Positions 1-6,334 of a stretch of DNA of 64,000 bases are shown in pieces. The stretch's first letter is position 1; every line of letters starts with the position of its first letter. The stretch lies in contig NZ_JACOPW010000003.1 in NCBI RefSeq assembly GCF_015461845.1, positions 124,001 through 188,000 on the forward strand, given 5' to 3'. A model generated the notes under the pieces. The model was not told the origin of the DNA and did no database searches. It worked only from the letters and a program-made list of their open reading frames with translations. The DNA is from Pseudomonas mucoides (GTDB taxonomy: Bacteria > Pseudomonadota > Gammaproteobacteria > Pseudomonadales > Pseudomonadaceae). The position numbers and the translations under genes were made by a program.

Positions 1-1
1 C

Positions 2-304
2 ATGGACGCGTCGGTGTTGGTTCGTTACGAAATGGTCCTGCGCGACCCGCAGAAGCACTGGGACGAGTATCTGGATGCCCAGCGCGACAAGATTCGTCGC
101 GGGTTGGCATTGCTCGAAAAAGACGCGATTGCCGAGCTGACCAGCCATTTCGATGTGGCGGCGATCAGCGTGGCCTGTGCGCTGGGCTACATCGACTTGC
201 GCCATCCGGATCTGGAATGGCGCGAGGCGAATCCGCAGTTGGCGGCGTGGTATTTCGAGGTAAGTCAGCGGCCTTCGATGTTGGCGACGATGCCTAAGGT
301 TTAG
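2..304 (+). CDS. Glutathione S-transferase, C-terminal part (5' end outside window)
   Basis: The reading frame is open from the first bases and ends at a TAG at 302-304, giving the last ~100 residues of a glutathione S-transferase. The helical C-terminal domain is visible (HFDVAAISVACALGYIDLRH, then the typical NPQLAAWYFEVSQRPS ending). The N-terminal thioredoxin-like glutathione-binding domain lies upstream of the window, so the in-frame ATG at base 2 is probably internal. Substrate unknown. The gene points towards creD and is separated from it by a REP pair. Confidence 0.8.
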   Translation: MDASVLVRYEMVLRDPQKHWDEYLDAQRDKIRRGLALLEKDAIAELTSHFDVAAISVACALGYIDLRHPDLEWREANPQLAAWYFEVSQRPSMLATMPKV

Positions 305-327
305 ATTTTCGCTGACTGCACTGGCCT

Positions 328-424
328 CATCGCGAGCAAGCTCGCTCCCACATTTGTTCTTTGGTGTGCGCAGATTTTGTGTTAACTGGAGATCCCCTGT
401 GGGAGCGAGCTTGCTCGCGATGGC
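328..424. repeat. REP doublet (REPIN)
   Basis: Two inverted Pseudomonas REP units: CATCGCGAGCAAGCTCGCTC at 328 and its complement at 399-424, about 45 bases apart. It sits in the convergent gap between the transferase and creD and may act as an mRNA 3' boundary. Confidence 0.85.
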
Positions 425-514
425 ACCACACCGAATCCACCGGAAACAGCTCAAAAATCAGCGTCGCCAATACCTCCCCTTCACGCTGATCCTCACGCAA
501 CCCAATCGACCGGC

Positions 515-1885
515 TCATTCCACCGCCCCCAGATCAAACACCATCGGCTTGGCGCTTTTCTGCCCGATCCCGTACCAGTCCAGCTTGCGGGTCAGCACCA
601 TGAACACCCCGAGCAACCCGAACAGCAACAACGAGCCCATCAGCAACGCGTAATCCTCGGCACTCAGCAAGCCATAGAGCAAGCCGTACAACGCCGCCAA
701 CCCCGCCGAAAAACTCAAGCCATGGCGCACGCTGCGCAGCACATGGCAGACATAGAACCCGATCAACAACACACAGCCCGCCGACGACAACAGATACGCC
801 AGGGCAAAACCAATGTGCTCGGACAGCGACAGCAACAACAGATAGAAGAACGCCAAAGCCACGCCGACCAACGCGTATTGCACCGGGTGCACCGCCAGGC
901 TTTTCAGCACTTCGAACAGGAAGAACCCAGCGAAGGTCAGGACGATAAACAGCAAGGCGTATTTGATCGCCCGATCACTCTTCAGATATTGATCCACCGG
1001 ATCGATAAAGCTCACGCCGAAACTGCGCCCGTTGTACGCCTCGCAACCACCGCCGGACACACAACTGCTCAGCGCTTCTTGCAGGTTGGTGGAGAAAAAC
1101 GAGGTCTGCCAGTTGGCCGTAAAACCTTGATCGGTGACTTCACGCTGGGCCGGCAGGTAGTTGCCGATAAAGCTCGGATGCGGCCAGTTCGCGCTCAGCG
1201 AGACTTTGCTGGTCTTGCCCACCGGCAAAATTTGCAACTGCCCGGTGCCCTGCAACCGCAGGTCAAAACCGAAGGCCAGTTCCGTGACTCGTTTAGTGTC
1301 CAAAGCCGGTAGCGTCACGTGTACGCCTTCACCCAGCCAACCCACCTGACTGCCCGGAACGAAGTCCAGCGTCTGGCCATTCAGGTCCAGCTTCAACGCA
1401 TTTTCGATGCCACGAATGTCGCTGATACCCACCGCCAGGAACGGCTGGTCGAACCGGTAATCCGCGAAGTCTTCCTTGATGCCCCATTGCGCCGGCACCG
1501 AGAAATGCCCGCTGATGTGGTTTTCCGCGTGGAACAGGCGCGCCTCGTAAATGCCTCGCGAGCGCAGCTCGGTCTGGATCTGGCCATCGAGCTCGAAACG
1601 CTCTGGCAGGAAGTACAAACGACCGCGCTCTTCGCCGATGTCCTGGTAGCGCTGGTTGGTTTTCTCGTTGAGCTTCCAGGTGCGCACCACTTTGCGATAC
1701 GGCACCACCATCAGCGGGCCGCTCAGTTGCTGGCTGAAGCTGGCGCTGCGGGCGATGTCTTCGAGTACACCGTCACGCCGTTGCTGGCGGTCCTGGATGA
1801 GGCCGTTGATCATCAAGAGCGGAATCAGTAGCAACAAAATCAGAAGGGCAATGGCCCCGAGTTTTAGGGTCAGGCTGCGGTTCAT
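515..1885 (-). CDS. creD: Inner membrane protein CreD
   Basis: A 456-residue integral membrane protein. It has an N-terminal membrane anchor (ALLILLLLIPLLMINGLI), a large periplasmic part of about 280 residues, and a cluster of roughly five membrane segments at the C terminus. Length and architecture match CreD, the effector-like member of the CreBC regulon, linked in Pseudomonas to beta-lactam response and envelope homeostasis; its biochemical role is not known. It lies downstream of creC in the same direction after a 134-base gap. That gap holds a candidate cre-tag and a hairpin that pairs with the ribosome-binding site GGGAGAG, so both transcription and translation may be separately controlled. 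Confidence 0.9.
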   Translation of the reverse strand: MNRSLTLKLGAIALLILLLLIPLLMINGLIQDRQQRRDGVLEDIARSASFSQQLSGPLMVVPYRKVVRTWKLNEKTNQRYQDIGEERGRLYFLPERFELDGQIQTELRSRGIYEARLFHAENHISGHFSVPAQWGIKEDFADYRFDQPFLAVGISDIRGIENALKLDLNGQTLDFVPGSQVGWLGEGVHVTLPALDTKRVTELAFGFDLRLQGTGQLQILPVGKTSKVSLSANWPHPSFIGNYLPAQREVTDQGFTANWQTSFFSTNLQEALSSCVSGGGCEAYNGRSFGVSFIDPVDQYLKSDRAIKYALLFIVLTFAGFFLFEVLKSLAVHPVQYALVGVALAFFYLLLLSLSEHIGFALAYLLSSAGCVLLIGFYVCHVLRSVRHGLSFSAGLAALYGLLYGLLSAEDYALLMGSLLLFGLLGVFMVLTRKLDWYGIGQKSAKPMVFDLGAVE

Positions 1886-1887
1886 GG

Positions 1888-1915
1888 GACTCTCCCTGTT
1901 TGGATGGGGAGAGTC
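1888..1915 (-). promoter_or_regulatory. Hairpin sequestering the creD ribosome-binding site
   Basis: In the creD mRNA, GACTCTCCC (complement of 1907-1915) pairs perfectly over nine bases with GGGAGAGTC (complement of 1888-1896) across a 10-base loop. The second arm contains the Shine-Dalgarno sequence and ends two bases before the ATG, so the folded form should block initiation. The pairing is seen directly; the regulatory effect is inferred. Confidence 0.5.
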
Positions 1916-1949
1916 TGGGAGGGCTGTGTGGGGGATTTATGGGGGGAAT

Positions 1950-1965
1950 GTGGAGATTATGTGGA
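1950..1965 (-). promoter_or_regulatory. Candidate cre-tag (CreB site) upstream of creD
   Basis: On the creD strand the sequence reads TCCAC-N6-TCCAC, a direct repeat with the exact 6-base spacing of the CreB box TTCAC-N6-TTCAC, each half differing by one base. It lies about 65 bases upstream of the creD ATG, a suitable place for activation by phosphorylated CreB. Confidence 0.45.
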
Positions 1966-1980
1966 GACTGCACCGCCCCC

Positions 1981-2006
1981 TGTGGGAGCGAGCCTGCTCG
2001 CGATGG
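1981..2006. repeat. Single REP unit
   Basis: One unpaired REP unit (TGTGGGAGCGAGCCTGCTCG) in the creC-creD gap, just after the creC stop codon. Confidence 0.8.
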
Positions 2007-2019
2007 CAACGACTCGGTC

Positions 2020-3438
2020 CTAAACCAGGCGCAACCTGACCTCAACACCACCTTCGACATTGCCAATGCTCAATGTCCCGCCATGCAACTGGACCACTTC
2101 TTCGACAAAATTAAGCCCCAGCCCAGTGCTTTTGCGACCACTGTCCGGACGCGGCAATGAGTAAAACCGCTCGCTCAGACGCGGCAAGGCATAGTCAGGA
2201 ATCGCCTCCGCCTGGTTAAACAGCCTGAACTCAATCTGCTCCCCAATTCGCTCGGCGCTAAAACGCAGCACACCCTGAACCGGGGTGAAATCCAGCGCAT
2301 TCTCCAACAAATTCCCCAACGCCTGACGCAACAGAAACGGCTCACCGGTTAGCGTCAGGTCCGCCGAAATCCGTTGCTCCACACGCAACTGCTTACCCTC
2401 GATCCGAGCCGCCTGAGCCTTCAACACTTCATCCACCAACCCGGCCAACGGCACCGCTACCCGTTCCTCCAGACCTTGCCGCTGTTCGACTTGAGCCAGG
2501 TTCAGCAGCCGCTCAATCAACTGCTGCATCCGCACACTTTCGCTATCGATATTGCTGACGAACCGCTGCTGCTGCGCCAACGGCATCTCGCCTTGCAGCA
2601 ATTCCGCCGCCCCGCGAATCGCCGCCAACGGGCTCTTCAACTCATGGGTCAGCGTGTGCACATAACGCTCGACGTAGGCCTTGCCTTCGAGCTGCGTGCG
2701 CATGTGCTCCACCGCTGTCGCCAGTTGCTCCAGCTCACCGCCGCGATAATGCGGCACCTCGACCCGACGGCCGTCACTCACCGCTTGCGCATACGCGGTC
2801 AACCGGCGCAGTGCCGCGCTCAACCACCATGACAACAACGCTCCGAACAACAGACCAAGACCGATCAACCCGGCGCCATAGGCCAGCAATCTTCGTTCGG
2901 TGCGATCGACGTAAGGCTGCAACGAGCTGTTGGGCTTGGCCACGGTGACCACGCCGATGATCTGGCCGTTGTCGCGGATCGGTGCACCGACGTGCATCAC
3001 CGAAGAGTGGGCGTCGTTCGGGTCGCTACGCGTGGAGCGAGCGCCGTATTCGCCGCGCAGGGTCAGGTAAACGTCATTCCAGCGCGAGTAATCCTGCCCC
3101 ACCGCCGCCCCGCTGGAGTCCAGCACCACGATGCCTTTGGCGTCGGTGACGTAGATGCGGTGATTGACCTGATTCTTCGACAAGCCCCAGATGCTGGCTT
3201 TCGGTTGCCGCTCGCCGTAGGCCTTGAGCAACTCGGGCCAGCGATTCTGGTTGAGGGTCCCGGCCTTGAAGTCGTCGCGCAGGATTTCGGCCATCAGGTT
3301 GGCCGTGTCGACCAGGGTTTCTTCGGTGGACTGGCGCACACCGGGGCGGATTTCTTCCATCACGGTGTTGAGCACGAAGTAACCGGTCAGGCCGATGAAC
3401 AACACATAGACCAGAAAAATCCGGATCCCCAGCGGCAT
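2020..3438 (-). CDS. creC: Sensor histidine kinase CreC
   Basis: A 472-residue two-component sensor kinase. It has an N-terminal membrane segment (IFLVYVLFIGLTGYFVLNTV), a periplasmic sensor region of about 150 residues, a second membrane segment (LAYGAGLIGLGLLFGALLSW), a HAMP linker, an H-box with the phospho-acceptor His (THELKSPLAAIRGAAELL), and N and G boxes (LGNLLENALDFTP; KSTGLGLNFVEEV). The ATG at 3438 overlaps the creB stop codon by one base (TGATG), which indicates translational coupling and fixes the start, although the frame stays open further upstream inside creB. The partner is CreB. Known responses of CreBC involve carbon metabolism and, in pseudomonads, PBP4 inhibition. Confidence 0.93.
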   Translation of the reverse strand: MPLGIRIFLVYVLFIGLTGYFVLNTVMEEIRPGVRQSTEETLVDTANLMAEILRDDFKAGTLNQNRWPELLKAYGERQPKASIWGLSKNQVNHRIYVTDAKGIVVLDSSGAAVGQDYSRWNDVYLTLRGEYGARSTRSDPNDAHSSVMHVGAPIRDNGQIIGVVTVAKPNSSLQPYVDRTERRLLAYGAGLIGLGLLFGALLSWWLSAALRRLTAYAQAVSDGRRVEVPHYRGGELEQLATAVEHMRTQLEGKAYVERYVHTLTHELKSPLAAIRGAAELLQGEMPLAQQQRFVSNIDSESVRMQQLIERLLNLAQVEQRQGLEERVAVPLAGLVDEVLKAQAARIEGKQLRVEQRISADLTLTGEPFLLRQALGNLLENALDFTPVQGVLRFSAERIGEQIEFRLFNQAEAIPDYALPRLSERFYSLPRPDSGRKSTGLGLNFVEEVVQLHGGTLSIGNVEGGVEVRLRLV

Positions 3439-4118
3439 CAGCTGTGCCCCGGGCTGTAGCTGTAGCCGAGGCCGCGATGGGTCTGGATCGGCTCCGCGTC
3501 TGCCCGTACCAGACGCAATTTGGCGCGCACGCTCTTGATGTGGCTGTCGATGCTGCGCTCGTAACCGGCATCGGCGGCGATGCCCAGCGCATCCAGCAAT
3601 TGCTCGCGACTGAACACCCGCTCGGGTTGTTCCAGCAGGCATTGCAGCAGGCGGAATTCGTGACGGGTCAGGCTCAGCGGCTGACCGCGATAATTGATTT
3701 GCACCCGTTCGTTGTCGATCCGAAACAACGCCGATGAGGATTCGGCCACCGTCCTTGGCGCCATGCGTTTGAGAATGGCCCGGACCCGCGCGGCGACTTC
3801 CCGCGGGCTGAACGGCTTGACCACGTAATCGTCGGCACCGATTTCCAGGCCGACCACACGATCGATTTCGGCATCGCGGGCACTGAGAAAAATCACCGGC
3901 ACTTCGCTGAAACGGCGCAATTGCTTGCAGGTCTCGAAGCCGCTGATGTCGGGCAAACCAATGTCGAGAATGATCAAATCGGCTGGCATGGCACGCTGAT
4001 GATCCAGCGCTGCCGCGCCCAGGCTCAGCCAGGTCGTGGTGAAGCCTTCACCCTGTAACGCGAAAACCAGGGTGTCGGCAATCGCCGCTTCGTCTTCGAC
4101 AATCAAGATATGAGGCAT
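3438..4118 (-). CDS. creB: Response regulator CreB
   Basis: A 226-residue OmpR/PhoB-family regulator. The receiver domain (residues 1-115) has the acidic pair (VEDEAA), the phospho-acceptor Asp (LIILDIGLPD), the conserved Ser/Thr (IFLSARD) and Lys (YVVKPFSPRE). A winged-helix DNA-binding domain follows, with LTRHEFRLLQCLLEQPERVF and the recognition region RSIDSHIKSVRAKL. It is the first gene of the leftward creBCD unit and is translationally coupled to creC. Ribosome-binding site CAGGACGCC precedes the ATG. Confidence 0.93.
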   Translation of the reverse strand: MPHILIVEDEAAIADTLVFALQGEGFTTTWLSLGAAALDHQRAMPADLIILDIGLPDISGFETCKQLRRFSEVPVIFLSARDAEIDRVVGLEIGADDYVVKPFSPREVAARVRAILKRMAPRTVAESSSALFRIDNERVQINYRGQPLSLTRHEFRLLQCLLEQPERVFSREQLLDALGIAADAGYERSIDSHIKSVRAKLRLVRADAEPIQTHRGLGYSYSPGHS

Positions 4119-4192
4119 GGCGTCCTGGCCCGGTTATGAAGTGGGCGAACGGTGCCCCAAGGCTCACGTCACGTCAATGAGACCACTTGAAT

Positions 4193-4714
4193 TCAGCAAT
4201 CGGGTTTGTCGGCGGTAAAACGGCGTGCCGGGTTCACCGCCGCGCCGAATTCACGCAAGGCTTTGGCGCCGATCAGCAAAGGGTAGTTGAAGCTGCTGCG
4301 GTCGGTCAGGTTGACCTCGACGGTGCGCTTGACGTTGCCCAGGCACAGCTCCAGATCGACCACCGGACGCTTGGTGGGCTCGGTCGCCTCCTTGTCATCG
4401 TCCTCTTCTTCGGAACGGGTCTTGATCTTGCTGATCCGCGCGACCTTGTGTTCGTAGACCTTGTTGCTGGCGTCCTTGGTGGCAAGGCGAAAACGTACCC
4501 AGTCTTCGCCGTCGCGGGTGAAGGTTTCGATGTCCTTGGCCGACAGCGACGCGGTCAGGGCACCGGTGTCCATCTTGGCCTTGAGCACTTCGCCGCCGAT
4601 TTCCGGCAGTGCGATGTATTCGTAACGCCCGTACAGGGTCGGCTCGGCGGCCAGGACTGGCAGGGCCATCAGGGAAAGCAGTGCGAGGATCGATTTCACG
4701 TAATGGGCATCCAT
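4193..4714 (-). CDS. Exported retropepsin-like protein (PF05618, 'ATP-dependent zinc protease' family)
   Basis: A 173-residue protein with a signal peptide (SILALLSLMALPVLAAEP). The mature part has the PF05618 pattern: YIALPEIGGEVLKAKMDTGA with a D-T-G motif like retropepsins, and the family's C-terminal motif FNYPLLIGAKALREF. An acidic insert of about 12 residues (SEEEDDDKEATEP) sits in the middle. The family is often annotated as ATP-dependent zinc protease, but the DTG motif favours an aspartic peptidase fold; substrates are unknown. The start is uncertain: the ATG at 4714 lacks a clear Shine-Dalgarno sequence and a GTG at 4699 would shorten the protein by five residues. Confidence 0.75.
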   Translation of the reverse strand: MDAHYVKSILALLSLMALPVLAAEPTLYGRYEYIALPEIGGEVLKAKMDTGALTASLSAKDIETFTRDGEDWVRFRLATKDASNKVYEHKVARISKIKTRSEEEDDDKEATEPTKRPVVDLELCLGNVKRTVEVNLTDRSSFNYPLLIGAKALREFGAAVNPARRFTADKPDC

Positions 4715-4890
4715 AAGGAGTGGGCAGCGGGATTTTAGACCGTTGTCGAGTAGATCGTTCCCACGCTCTGCGTGGGAGCGAGCGTGTCGCAAGATTAACG
4801 CCCCAAAGGTGAAACATTCGTCACCCCCGATTTGGCCTCCCGCCCGAAGCTGCTTATCATGGCGCGCCCACATGATCCCAAGAGTTACTT

Positions 4891-5778
4891 ATGCGCCGCC
4901 TGCTCACCGGCTGTTTCGTCACCCTGCTGCTGTTGCTCAACACCCTGGTCCTGATCGGGCCGCTGATGGTATTTGCCCTGCTCAAACTGGTCCTGCCCGG
5001 TCGCTATCGCGACTACGCCTCATGGGCCGTGATGTGGATCGCCGAGACCTGGGCCGAGATCGACAAACTGATCTTCCGTCTATGCATCCCGACCCGCTGG
5101 GACATCCGCGGCGGCGAAGGCCTGCGCGTCGACACGTCTTACCTGGTGATCAGCAACCATCAATCCTGGGTTGATATCCCGGCGTTGATCCAGACCCTCA
5201 ACCGGCGCACGCCGTTCTTCAAGTTCTTCCTCAAGAAAGAGCTGATCTGGGTGCCGTTCCTGGGGTTGGCATGGTGGGCGCTGGATTACCCGTTCATGAA
5301 GCGTTACACCAAGGCCTACCTGGCCAGGCACCCGGAGTTGGCCGGCAAGGATCTGGAGATCACCAAAGCGGCGTGCGAGCTGTTCAAGCGTCAGCCGGTG
5401 ACGGTGGTCAACTACCTCGAAGGCACTCGCTACACCGCCGCGAAAAGCGCCCAGCAGCAATCACCCTTCACTCACCTGCTTCGGCCCAAGGCAGGCGGCG
5501 TGGCGTTTGTGCTGGCGGCATTGGGCGAACAGCTGGATGCCGTGCTCGATGTGACGGTGGTGTATCCGCAACAGGCGATTCCGGGGTTCTGGGATTTGAT
5601 CAGCGGTAATGTGCCGAGGGTCATCATCGACATCAAGACCCGCGAACTAGACCCCGCGCTGTGGCAAGGCGATTACGAAAACGATCCGCTGTTTCGCGAA
5701 AAAATCCAGAACTGGGTCAACCAGCTCTGGATCGAAAAAGACCAGCGTATCGACGCATTGCGCGCCGAGCGCCGTTGA
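4891..5778 (+). CDS. PlsC-type 1-acyl-glycerol-3-phosphate acyltransferase (YihG-like)
   Basis: A 295-residue membrane-associated acyltransferase. An N-terminal membrane helix (LLTGCFVTLLLLLNTLVLIG) precedes the catalytic motif H-x4-D (SNHQSWVDIP). Further blocks include FFLKKELIWVPFLGLAWW and the phosphate-binding motif NYLEGTRYT. The family acylates lysophosphatidic acid or related lipids in the inner membrane; the arrangement most resembles YihG, a PlsC paralogue that tunes fatty-acid composition. The gene stands alone; the downstream DUF2780 gene is convergent and starts one base after its stop codon. Confidence 0.87.
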   Translation: MRRLLTGCFVTLLLLLNTLVLIGPLMVFALLKLVLPGRYRDYASWAVMWIAETWAEIDKLIFRLCIPTRWDIRGGEGLRVDTSYLVISNHQSWVDIPALIQTLNRRTPFFKFFLKKELIWVPFLGLAWWALDYPFMKRYTKAYLARHPELAGKDLEITKAACELFKRQPVTVVNYLEGTRYTAAKSAQQQSPFTHLLRPKAGGVAFVLAALGEQLDAVLDVTVVYPQQAIPGFWDLISGNVPRVIIDIKTRELDPALWQGDYENDPLFREKIQNWVNQLWIEKDQRIDALRAERR

Positions 5779-5779
5779 A

Positions 5780-6334
5780 TCAACTGCCGGTGCCAGCGCC
5801 CCAGATCCCGCCCAGGCTTTCCAGCAACGAGCCACCAACGCCCTGCTGACCGAGGTATTGCAACAGCACCGGGGCAAACTGGCCGATCATGCCGCTGTCC
5901 ATGCCCAACTCGCTAAAAGCGTTGTTCAGATCATTGGTGTTCTTCACGGCACCCAAGGCATTGTCCAGACCGGCCGCCTTGCCGGAAGACCCAAGCAGGC
6001 CGGCCAGCGCGCCCAGCTCACCGCCGCCGGACAACTTGTCGATGCCCGGAACGCTTTTGGCCAGTTCCGAGTAATCGGTCGAGCTCAACTGATTCTTCGC
6101 CAGCCCCAGCATCGCCCCAGTCCCGCCGACGGCCTGTTGTGGTGTCACGTTCAATTGGCTGAGCGCGCTCAACAAACCGGCCGTTTCTGAAGTCGGCGCC
6201 GCGGCGGCGGCTGTATTACCGCCCTGCATGCTTGAGGCCGCTTTAGTCACGTCGTCCAGGCTGAAGCCTGCGAAGACCGGGCTGGCCGCAAGGGTCATCA
6301 GCGAAGCCAGTGCAAAACCGCGTGAAATCTTCAT
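5780..6334 (-). CDS. DUF2780 secreted protein
   Basis: A 184-residue exported protein of low sequence complexity, rich in Gly, Ala, Ser and Leu. A signal peptide ends near ASPVFAGFSL. The body contains helical repeats with SALSQLNVTPQQAVGGTGAM and SELAKSVPGIDKLSGG, characteristic of DUF2780. Function is unknown. The ATG at 6334 is chosen because AGAGGA lies nine bases upstream and because the signal peptide starts there. Confidence 0.8.
   Translation of the reverse strand: MKISRGFALASLMTLAASPVFAGFSLDDVTKAASSMQGGNTAAAAAPTSETAGLLSALSQLNVTPQQAVGGTGAMLGLAKNQLSSTDYSELAKSVPGIDKLSGGGELGALAGLLGSSGKAAGLDNALGAVKNTNDLNNAFSELGMDSGMIGQFAPVLLQYLGQQGVGGSLLESLGGIWGAGTGS

Follow-up and report, generated by a model that had tools for sequence, protein, structure and literature searches.

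A hairpin nested with a predicted CreB promoter may keep read-through RNA from translating creD in Pseudomonas mucoides and its relatives

In Pseudomonas mucoides, the creD start codon lies two bases behind a 9-bp perfect stem (GACTCTCCC/GGGAGAGTC) that encloses the Shine-Dalgarno (SD) sequence. We consider it close to an even call, leaning slightly to the doubtful side, that this stem is genuine, under selection, and blocks creD translation on RNA originating from creBC or further upstream, and that transcription from a CreB promoter starts within its loop. According to this model, RNA that reaches creD from creBC or from farther upstream would fold into the stem and thereby block creD translation, and activated CreB would drive a promoter with its -10 element in the 5' arm and its start in the loop. 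The short mRNA made in this way, with a leader of approximately 20 nt, would be without the 5' arm and its SD would be freer, and CreD would be made mainly upon firing of the creD promoter by CreB. The window, i.e., the whole stretch of DNA that was analyzed, comprises 64,000 nucleotides, and the features concerned are collected in Table 1.

Table 1. Positions in the window of the cre genes and of the elements at the creD start
Feature	Position	Strand	Basis
creD, inner membrane protein CreD	515..1885	-	NCBIfam NF008712, Pfam PF06123
creC, sensor kinase, upstream, same strand	2020..3438	-	NCBIfam NF008312
creB, response regulator	3438..4118	-	NCBIfam NF008296
creD start codon ATG	1883..1885	-	ORF 515-1885; CreD by NCBIfam and Pfam; N-terminus aligned from residue 1 in relatives
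Stem 3' arm GGGAGAGTC, SD core GGAG at 1895-1892	1888..1896	-	
10-nt loop CATCCAAACA; predicted transcription start A1905	1897..1906	-	start inferred from spacing to hexamer
Stem 5' arm GACTCTCCC	1907..1915	-	sequence, fold, shuffles
-10-like hexamer CAGACT, overlaps 5' arm	1912..1917	-	register in 81/94 representatives; alignment conservation; E. coli TATCCT in register
Four CreB-like half-sites, 11-bp spacing	1928..1965	-	sequence; TCCAC 1965-1961, TCCAC 1954-1950, CCCAT 1943-1939, CCCAC 1932-1928

The creB, creC, and creD assignments are all above the NCBIfam equivalog cut-offs. The gap between creC and creD measures 134 bases (1886-2019), and its creD end reads on the minus strand TCCAC-ATAATC-TCCAC-ATTCCC-CCCAT-AAATCC-CCCAC-ACAGCCCTCC-CAGACT-CTCCCC-A-TCCAAACAGGGAGAGTCCC-ATG. 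In the window, no terminator-like site was predicted in the gap separating creC from creD, which leaves room for read-through, and an intrinsic terminator at the hairpin was discarded, as it is not among the terminator-like sites predicted in the window. REP-like palindromes (TGTGGGAGCGAGC...) are encountered on both sides of creD, as an inverted pair past the creD stop (340-422) and as a single copy between creC and the half-sites (1978-2007). The own genome yielded at least 63 matches, almost all of them to this REP-like element, with 40 of 605 candidates scored.

The minus strand from 1915 to 1883 reads GACTCTCCC CATCCAAACA GGGAGAGTC CC ATG, and the original prediction of a perfect hairpin at 1888-1915, with its stem length, its enclosed SD and its distance to the ATG, proved exact. 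Folding of positions 1850-1945 (minus strand) yielded -20.9 kcal/mol (z -2.14), with 6 of 200 dinucleotide shuffles equally good, and for the creD leader from -50 to +3 the fold z amounted to -4.77. A perfect stem of equal length appeared in none of 1000 mononucleotide shuffles of the leader, in which stems averaged 3.9 bp. Among 28 window genes, the starts of which were assigned by a simple scripted rule, the SD of creD has the lowest predicted accessibility (0.0001 vs a median of 0.30); the median for 26 E. coli genes having an SD core is 0.53. The inverted repeat also folds on the plus strand, where no gene start is found in the matching position. A known Rfam riboswitch, thermometer, or leader RNA was ruled out: a search of window positions 1-6000 gave five matches, all below threshold and with E values of up to 5, and none of them overlaps 1883-1965.

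The cre tag of CreB-dependent promoters is given, in the portions of the published work available, as TTCAC-N6-TTCAC. A TTCAC-like direct repeat with 11-bp distance is present upstream of creD as TCCAC-N6-TCCAC (1950-1965), extended by two more half-sites; exact TTCAC is absent from the creD half-sites of the window, and TCCACA-N5-TCCACA has a single occurrence in the own genome. From the sequence we infer that CreB binds these half-sites, and creD of P. aeruginosa is described as CreBC-dependent, on basis of creBC mutants, in the available part of PMC2654508.

The last half-site ends nine bases before CAGACT, and computation shows this register to be conserved: xAxxxT occurs exactly nine bases past the last YCAY half-site in 81 of the 94 representatives. 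Spacings of 6, 7, 8, 10, and 12 were found in 0, 2, 1, 0, and 4 representatives, respectively, and the spacing of 11 (47 representatives) corresponds to GACTCT within CAGACTCT. In a 45-row alignment the hexamer bases A2, C5, and T6 are each conserved in at least 90% of rows. A2 and T6 are the key bases of a -10 element; the hexamer finder employed for the accessibility and leader pairing counts favours them by construction, which does not hold for the half-site-anchored count or the alignment. The hexamer position is occupied by AATAAT and GATACT in two AT-rich outgroups, and E. coli creD displays CCACA-N9-TATCCT-GCTGCC-A in the same register. CAGACT looks like a -10 element, and the spacing from the conserved hexamer register predicts that transcription from creD's own promoter would start at A1905, inside the loop. 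The open-licence literature yielded no start-site, read-through, or reporter data for creD.

With a start in the loop, the mRNA of this promoter would be without the 5' arm, so that the hairpin could form only in RNA arriving from creBC, and melting would be unnecessary in a CreB-driven mRNA. The proposal that creD translation requires melting was therefore borne out in part: the SD is hidden and the arms co-evolve, but both arms had been assumed to be present in the creD mRNA, whereas the 5' arm overlaps the -10-like hexamer and the predicted start is in the loop. A main creD mRNA that starts upstream and contains the whole hairpin, with a ribosome, an RNA-binding protein (e.g., RsmA/RsmE), or a small RNA gating its translation, would account for the hidden SD and the co-evolution of the arms. 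An ANGGA-type motif, AGGGA, is moreover present at the SD (1897-1893), and RsmA is described as preferring ANGGA in hairpins in the available part of PMC6061880. Such gating is nevertheless considered rather unlikely: the motif is partly in the stem and not wholly in the loop, no Rfam family is found near the hairpin, and the hexamer overlapped by the 5' arm is in conserved register with the CreB-like half-sites, a promoter of which the mRNA should be without that arm.

The 5' base of 93% of the predicted pairs is located upstream of the predicted start. Median predicted SD accessibility is 0.00 in read-through RNA vs 0.36 in RNA that begins at the predicted start, and the short form is the more accessible one in 257 of 269 leaders (out of 276, with E. 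coli, L157, and leaders lacking a usable SD core left out). The short mRNA is predicted to be only partly open, as a 4-bp GGGA/UCCC hairpin is possible. Since the predicted promoter start splits the co-evolving arms, a structure that acts on RNA from upstream (creBC) would be the simplest account. Some observations weigh against this model. The half-sites and the C-rich discriminator fit GGAG to some degree anyway, and in Stenotrophomonas maltophilia RT-PCR detected no creBCD co-transcript according to the available part of PMC4689548, where CreBC is also described as lowering creD expression. If read-through were truly absent, the structure would need a different reason.

A creD gene was found in 228 of 298 genus genomes and in 47 of 119 family genomes. 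Repeated loss of creD in the genus is suggested by the 70 of 298 genomes without a match, and by a single in-frame TGA in at least five matches (G206, G048, G059, G095, and G283). In nine family genomes (G305, G320, G333, G343, G353, G374, G381, G395, and G402) the CreD match is in two pieces, approximately residues 1-280 and 275-454, within one open frame, and the CreD proteins of these genomes may therefore carry an insertion. The closest CreD among named contigs (best 80 of 362 loci) shares 99% identity and bears the label Pseudomonas brassicacearum (L039).

Genus and family genomes, the named contigs (same best 80 of 362 loci), and further stretches supplied 301 leaders, 276 of them unique, with E. 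coli K-12 as one of the latter; L001-L009 (own locus or REP matches) and leaders with less than 110 nt upstream were left out. The upstream sequence of L313 was too short. Concealment of the ribosome-binding site by the stem was supported in the window and in relatives, since at least three SD core bases are predicted to pair to an upstream segment in 261 of the 276 unique leaders and the whole core in 226. L035, among the 15 'unpaired' leaders, is an artefact: the finder's hexamer is too far upstream and the SD is in the usual stem. By a stricter count the whole SD core is paired in 17 of 29 representatives. Of 24 divergent representatives, 12 have a fold z below -1.5 (mean -1.9), and L034, L230, L302, and L290 display no excess structure by this measure. 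The pairing takes forms such as CGCTCC/GGAGCG in L034, a perfect 9-bp stem in L206, and, by eye, GGCTCC/GGAGCC in L202. In E. coli a 10-bp perfect stem (CATAGTCTTC/GAAGACTATG) covers the creD start codon, and the longest perfect stem in 47 other E. coli genes from one 50-kb stretch is 6 bp.

The arms co-evolve as pairing energy, as supported by swap tests in which the upstream segment (-50..-23) of each leader was paired with its own SD segment (-22..-1) or with that of another species, and the duplex energies were compared. Native arms paired better than swapped ones in 20 GC-rich representatives (z -4.3) and in 57 (z -6.3), and when the upstream arm was taken to be the hexamer plus 12 nt, z reached -8.4; L290, L291, L200, and E. 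coli were excluded from these GC-rich tests, and L157 also from the last one. For five pairs of control windows in these 57 leaders, z was +0.9, -2.3, -1.6, -1.9, and -0.8; nominal significance was reached by two of them (p 0.011 and 0.030), indicating that relatedness and composition account for a small part of the swap signal. In a 24-leader set that includes AT-rich leaders and E. coli, native arms scored -15.7 vs -12.5 for swapped arms (sd 0.6), to which composition contributes. Among matched controls from neighbouring genes, creB gave z +1.1, with too few distinct leaders overall (creB 6, creC 1, retropepsin-like 3, acyltransferase-like 2).

Covariation of the arms, put forward earlier as a check on the hairpin, was thus found as the out-pairing of swapped by native arms (z -4.3 to -8.4), but only marginally in fixed columns. 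In the 45-row alignment, 68.0% of the fixed-register cells are paired vs 65.8% after shuffling, with 13 of 500 shuffles as good; the covariation score was equalled in 41 of 500 shuffles and the number of pairs changed on both sides in 415 of 500. RNAalifold reported no common structure for the same alignment. Stems probably slide between lineages, leaving columns out of line, which would explain both the RNAalifold result and the marginal fixed-register counts.

In a group of 21 leaders the pairing partner of the SD is the last CreB-like half-site, over at least 6 bp in 18 of them. This group consists of 15 leaders with GACACTG and six chosen by eye, and is hence defined by motif and inspection rather than as a clade. 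Its half-site/SD pairs include GGGCTCC/GGAGCCC, GGCTCC/GGAGCC, GCCTCC/GGAGGC, and AAGGCTCC/GGAGCCTT; the half-sites contain CTCC, which matches GGAG anyway. In the 15 GACACTG leaders the hexamer matches the nine-base spacing two bases further on. Judged from these sequences, the 5' partner appears to have shifted in the group and yet to remain upstream of the predicted promoter start. An additional short hairpin with loop ACA was noted by eye around the hexamer GACACT in L226, L228, L229, L233, and L234 (also in L231, L237, L240, L241, L292-L295, L298, and L300), for example GGCGCAG-ACA-CTGCGCC.

Beyond the family, an E. coli CreD query matched 32 of 369 class genomes, the genome of the window included, and 28 leaders could be read. 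The eight leaders located beside creC on the same strand have a mean fold z of -2.2, compared to -0.2 for the other 20 (one-sided p 0.012), and a median SD accessibility of 0.23 vs 0.35 in 15 others (p 0.038), five of the 20 being without an SD core and absent from the accessibility test. Among the eight, excess structure is absent from L316 and slight in L312; L325, of which the stem measures 11 bp, lies beyond the preset creC distance and was counted among the 20. A stem-length shuffle test gave P<0.05 in 6 of the 28 leaders (L312, L315, L317, L322, L325, and L327) vs none of 47 E. coli background genes. Stems of 8-11 bp are found in L315, L317, L322, and L325, and L317 combines a 10-bp stem (GGTCCATCCT/AGGATGGACC) with the tag TTCACACTCGCTTCAA, which the available part of the literature reports for S. 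maltophilia creD. Long perfect inverted repeats just before the SD were seen in L327 (11 bp) and, by eye, in L328 (11 bp); no creC was found beside creD in either case. Plain chance as origin of the stem was rejected by the shuffles, the background genes, and the swap tests.

These comparisons also bear on two further explanations. The 5' arm could be kept as -10 element plus discriminator and the 3' arm as SD, their complementarity being fortuitous and the stem functionless. Both arms do have other likely jobs, column-wise covariation is marginal, RNAalifold finds no pairs, and some leaders are weak-stemmed. We nevertheless judge such a by-product unlikely in view of the swap tests with their controls, the differently sequenced 10-bp stem in E. 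coli, the long stems of L315, L317, L322, and L325, and the shift of the 5' partner to a half-site in another group. Alternatively, the inverted repeat that spans -10 and SD could act in DNA, by serving a dimeric regulator as operator or by shaping the promoter, in line with its overlap with the predicted promoter core. This is very improbable, since arm sequences are wholly different between lineages (E. coli, L317, L322, L325) and, unlike in a protein-binding dyad, arm spacing varies, with loops of 6-24 nt in the same leaders. As a broader and more tentative proposal, somewhat short of an even chance, gammaproteobacterial creD would keep a translational insulator with a nested promoter, in which pairing is conserved, sequence and 5'-arm place turn over, and the arm, being upstream of the start, is selected for a role in RNA never made from creD's own promoter.

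The same sequence evidence, including the lack of a predicted intrinsic terminator between creC and creD, would fit a hairpin that acts on read-through transcription itself, via pausing, Rho-dependent termination, or RNA decay, instead of on ribosome access. It is improbable that this is the main role, because the SD core is in the stem in most leaders, which goes beyond the need of termination, and on the minus strand the stem is not followed by a T-run.

Muting of read-through by the hairpin would allow creD RNA and CreD protein to diverge, and reporters that keep an upstream promoter would differ from those that lose it. Studies of beta-lactam and envelope stress use creD RNA as a read-out of CreBC activity, as stated in the available part of PMC4689548. 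A phage device, a promoter nested in a start-hiding hairpin, would then be present in a conserved chromosomal operon, which suggests a genome-wide search for promoters of which the -10 element or activator site pairs with the SD.

No description of a hairpin at creD was found in the open-licence literature, and the device itself is of a known sort. In phage T4 gene e (also in soc, 49, and I-TevI), RNA initiated upstream folds so as to cover the SD or the start codon; the long early transcripts of gene e hide the ribosome-binding site, and transcripts from a late promoter just upstream are without the 5' part and well translated, as described in the available part of PMC3014915. The creD leader resembles gene e in that its SD is paired in upstream-initiated RNA, here by prediction only. 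It differs in that gene e belongs to a phage with timed late promoters, whereas creD is chromosomal, its promoter is predicted to depend on a two-component regulator, and the arrangement is predicted here from the sequence; moreover, the 5' arm at creD overlaps the -10 element or, in one group, a half-site. With the CreB-dependent cre/blr-tag promoters of E. coli, Aeromonas, and P. aeruginosa, as far as the available portions of the literature describe them, creD of P. mucoides shares direct repeats with 11-bp spacing upstream of creD, whereas here the repeats are TCCAC/CCCAT/CCCAC, four half-sites are present, and the promoter core is nested with a stem that hides the start. Finally, the read-through hairpins of the IS10 and IS50 transposase genes protect against translation of RNA from outside promoters. 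Such protection is what the creD hairpin would share with them, the IS10 and IS50 hairpins differing in being part of mobile elements.
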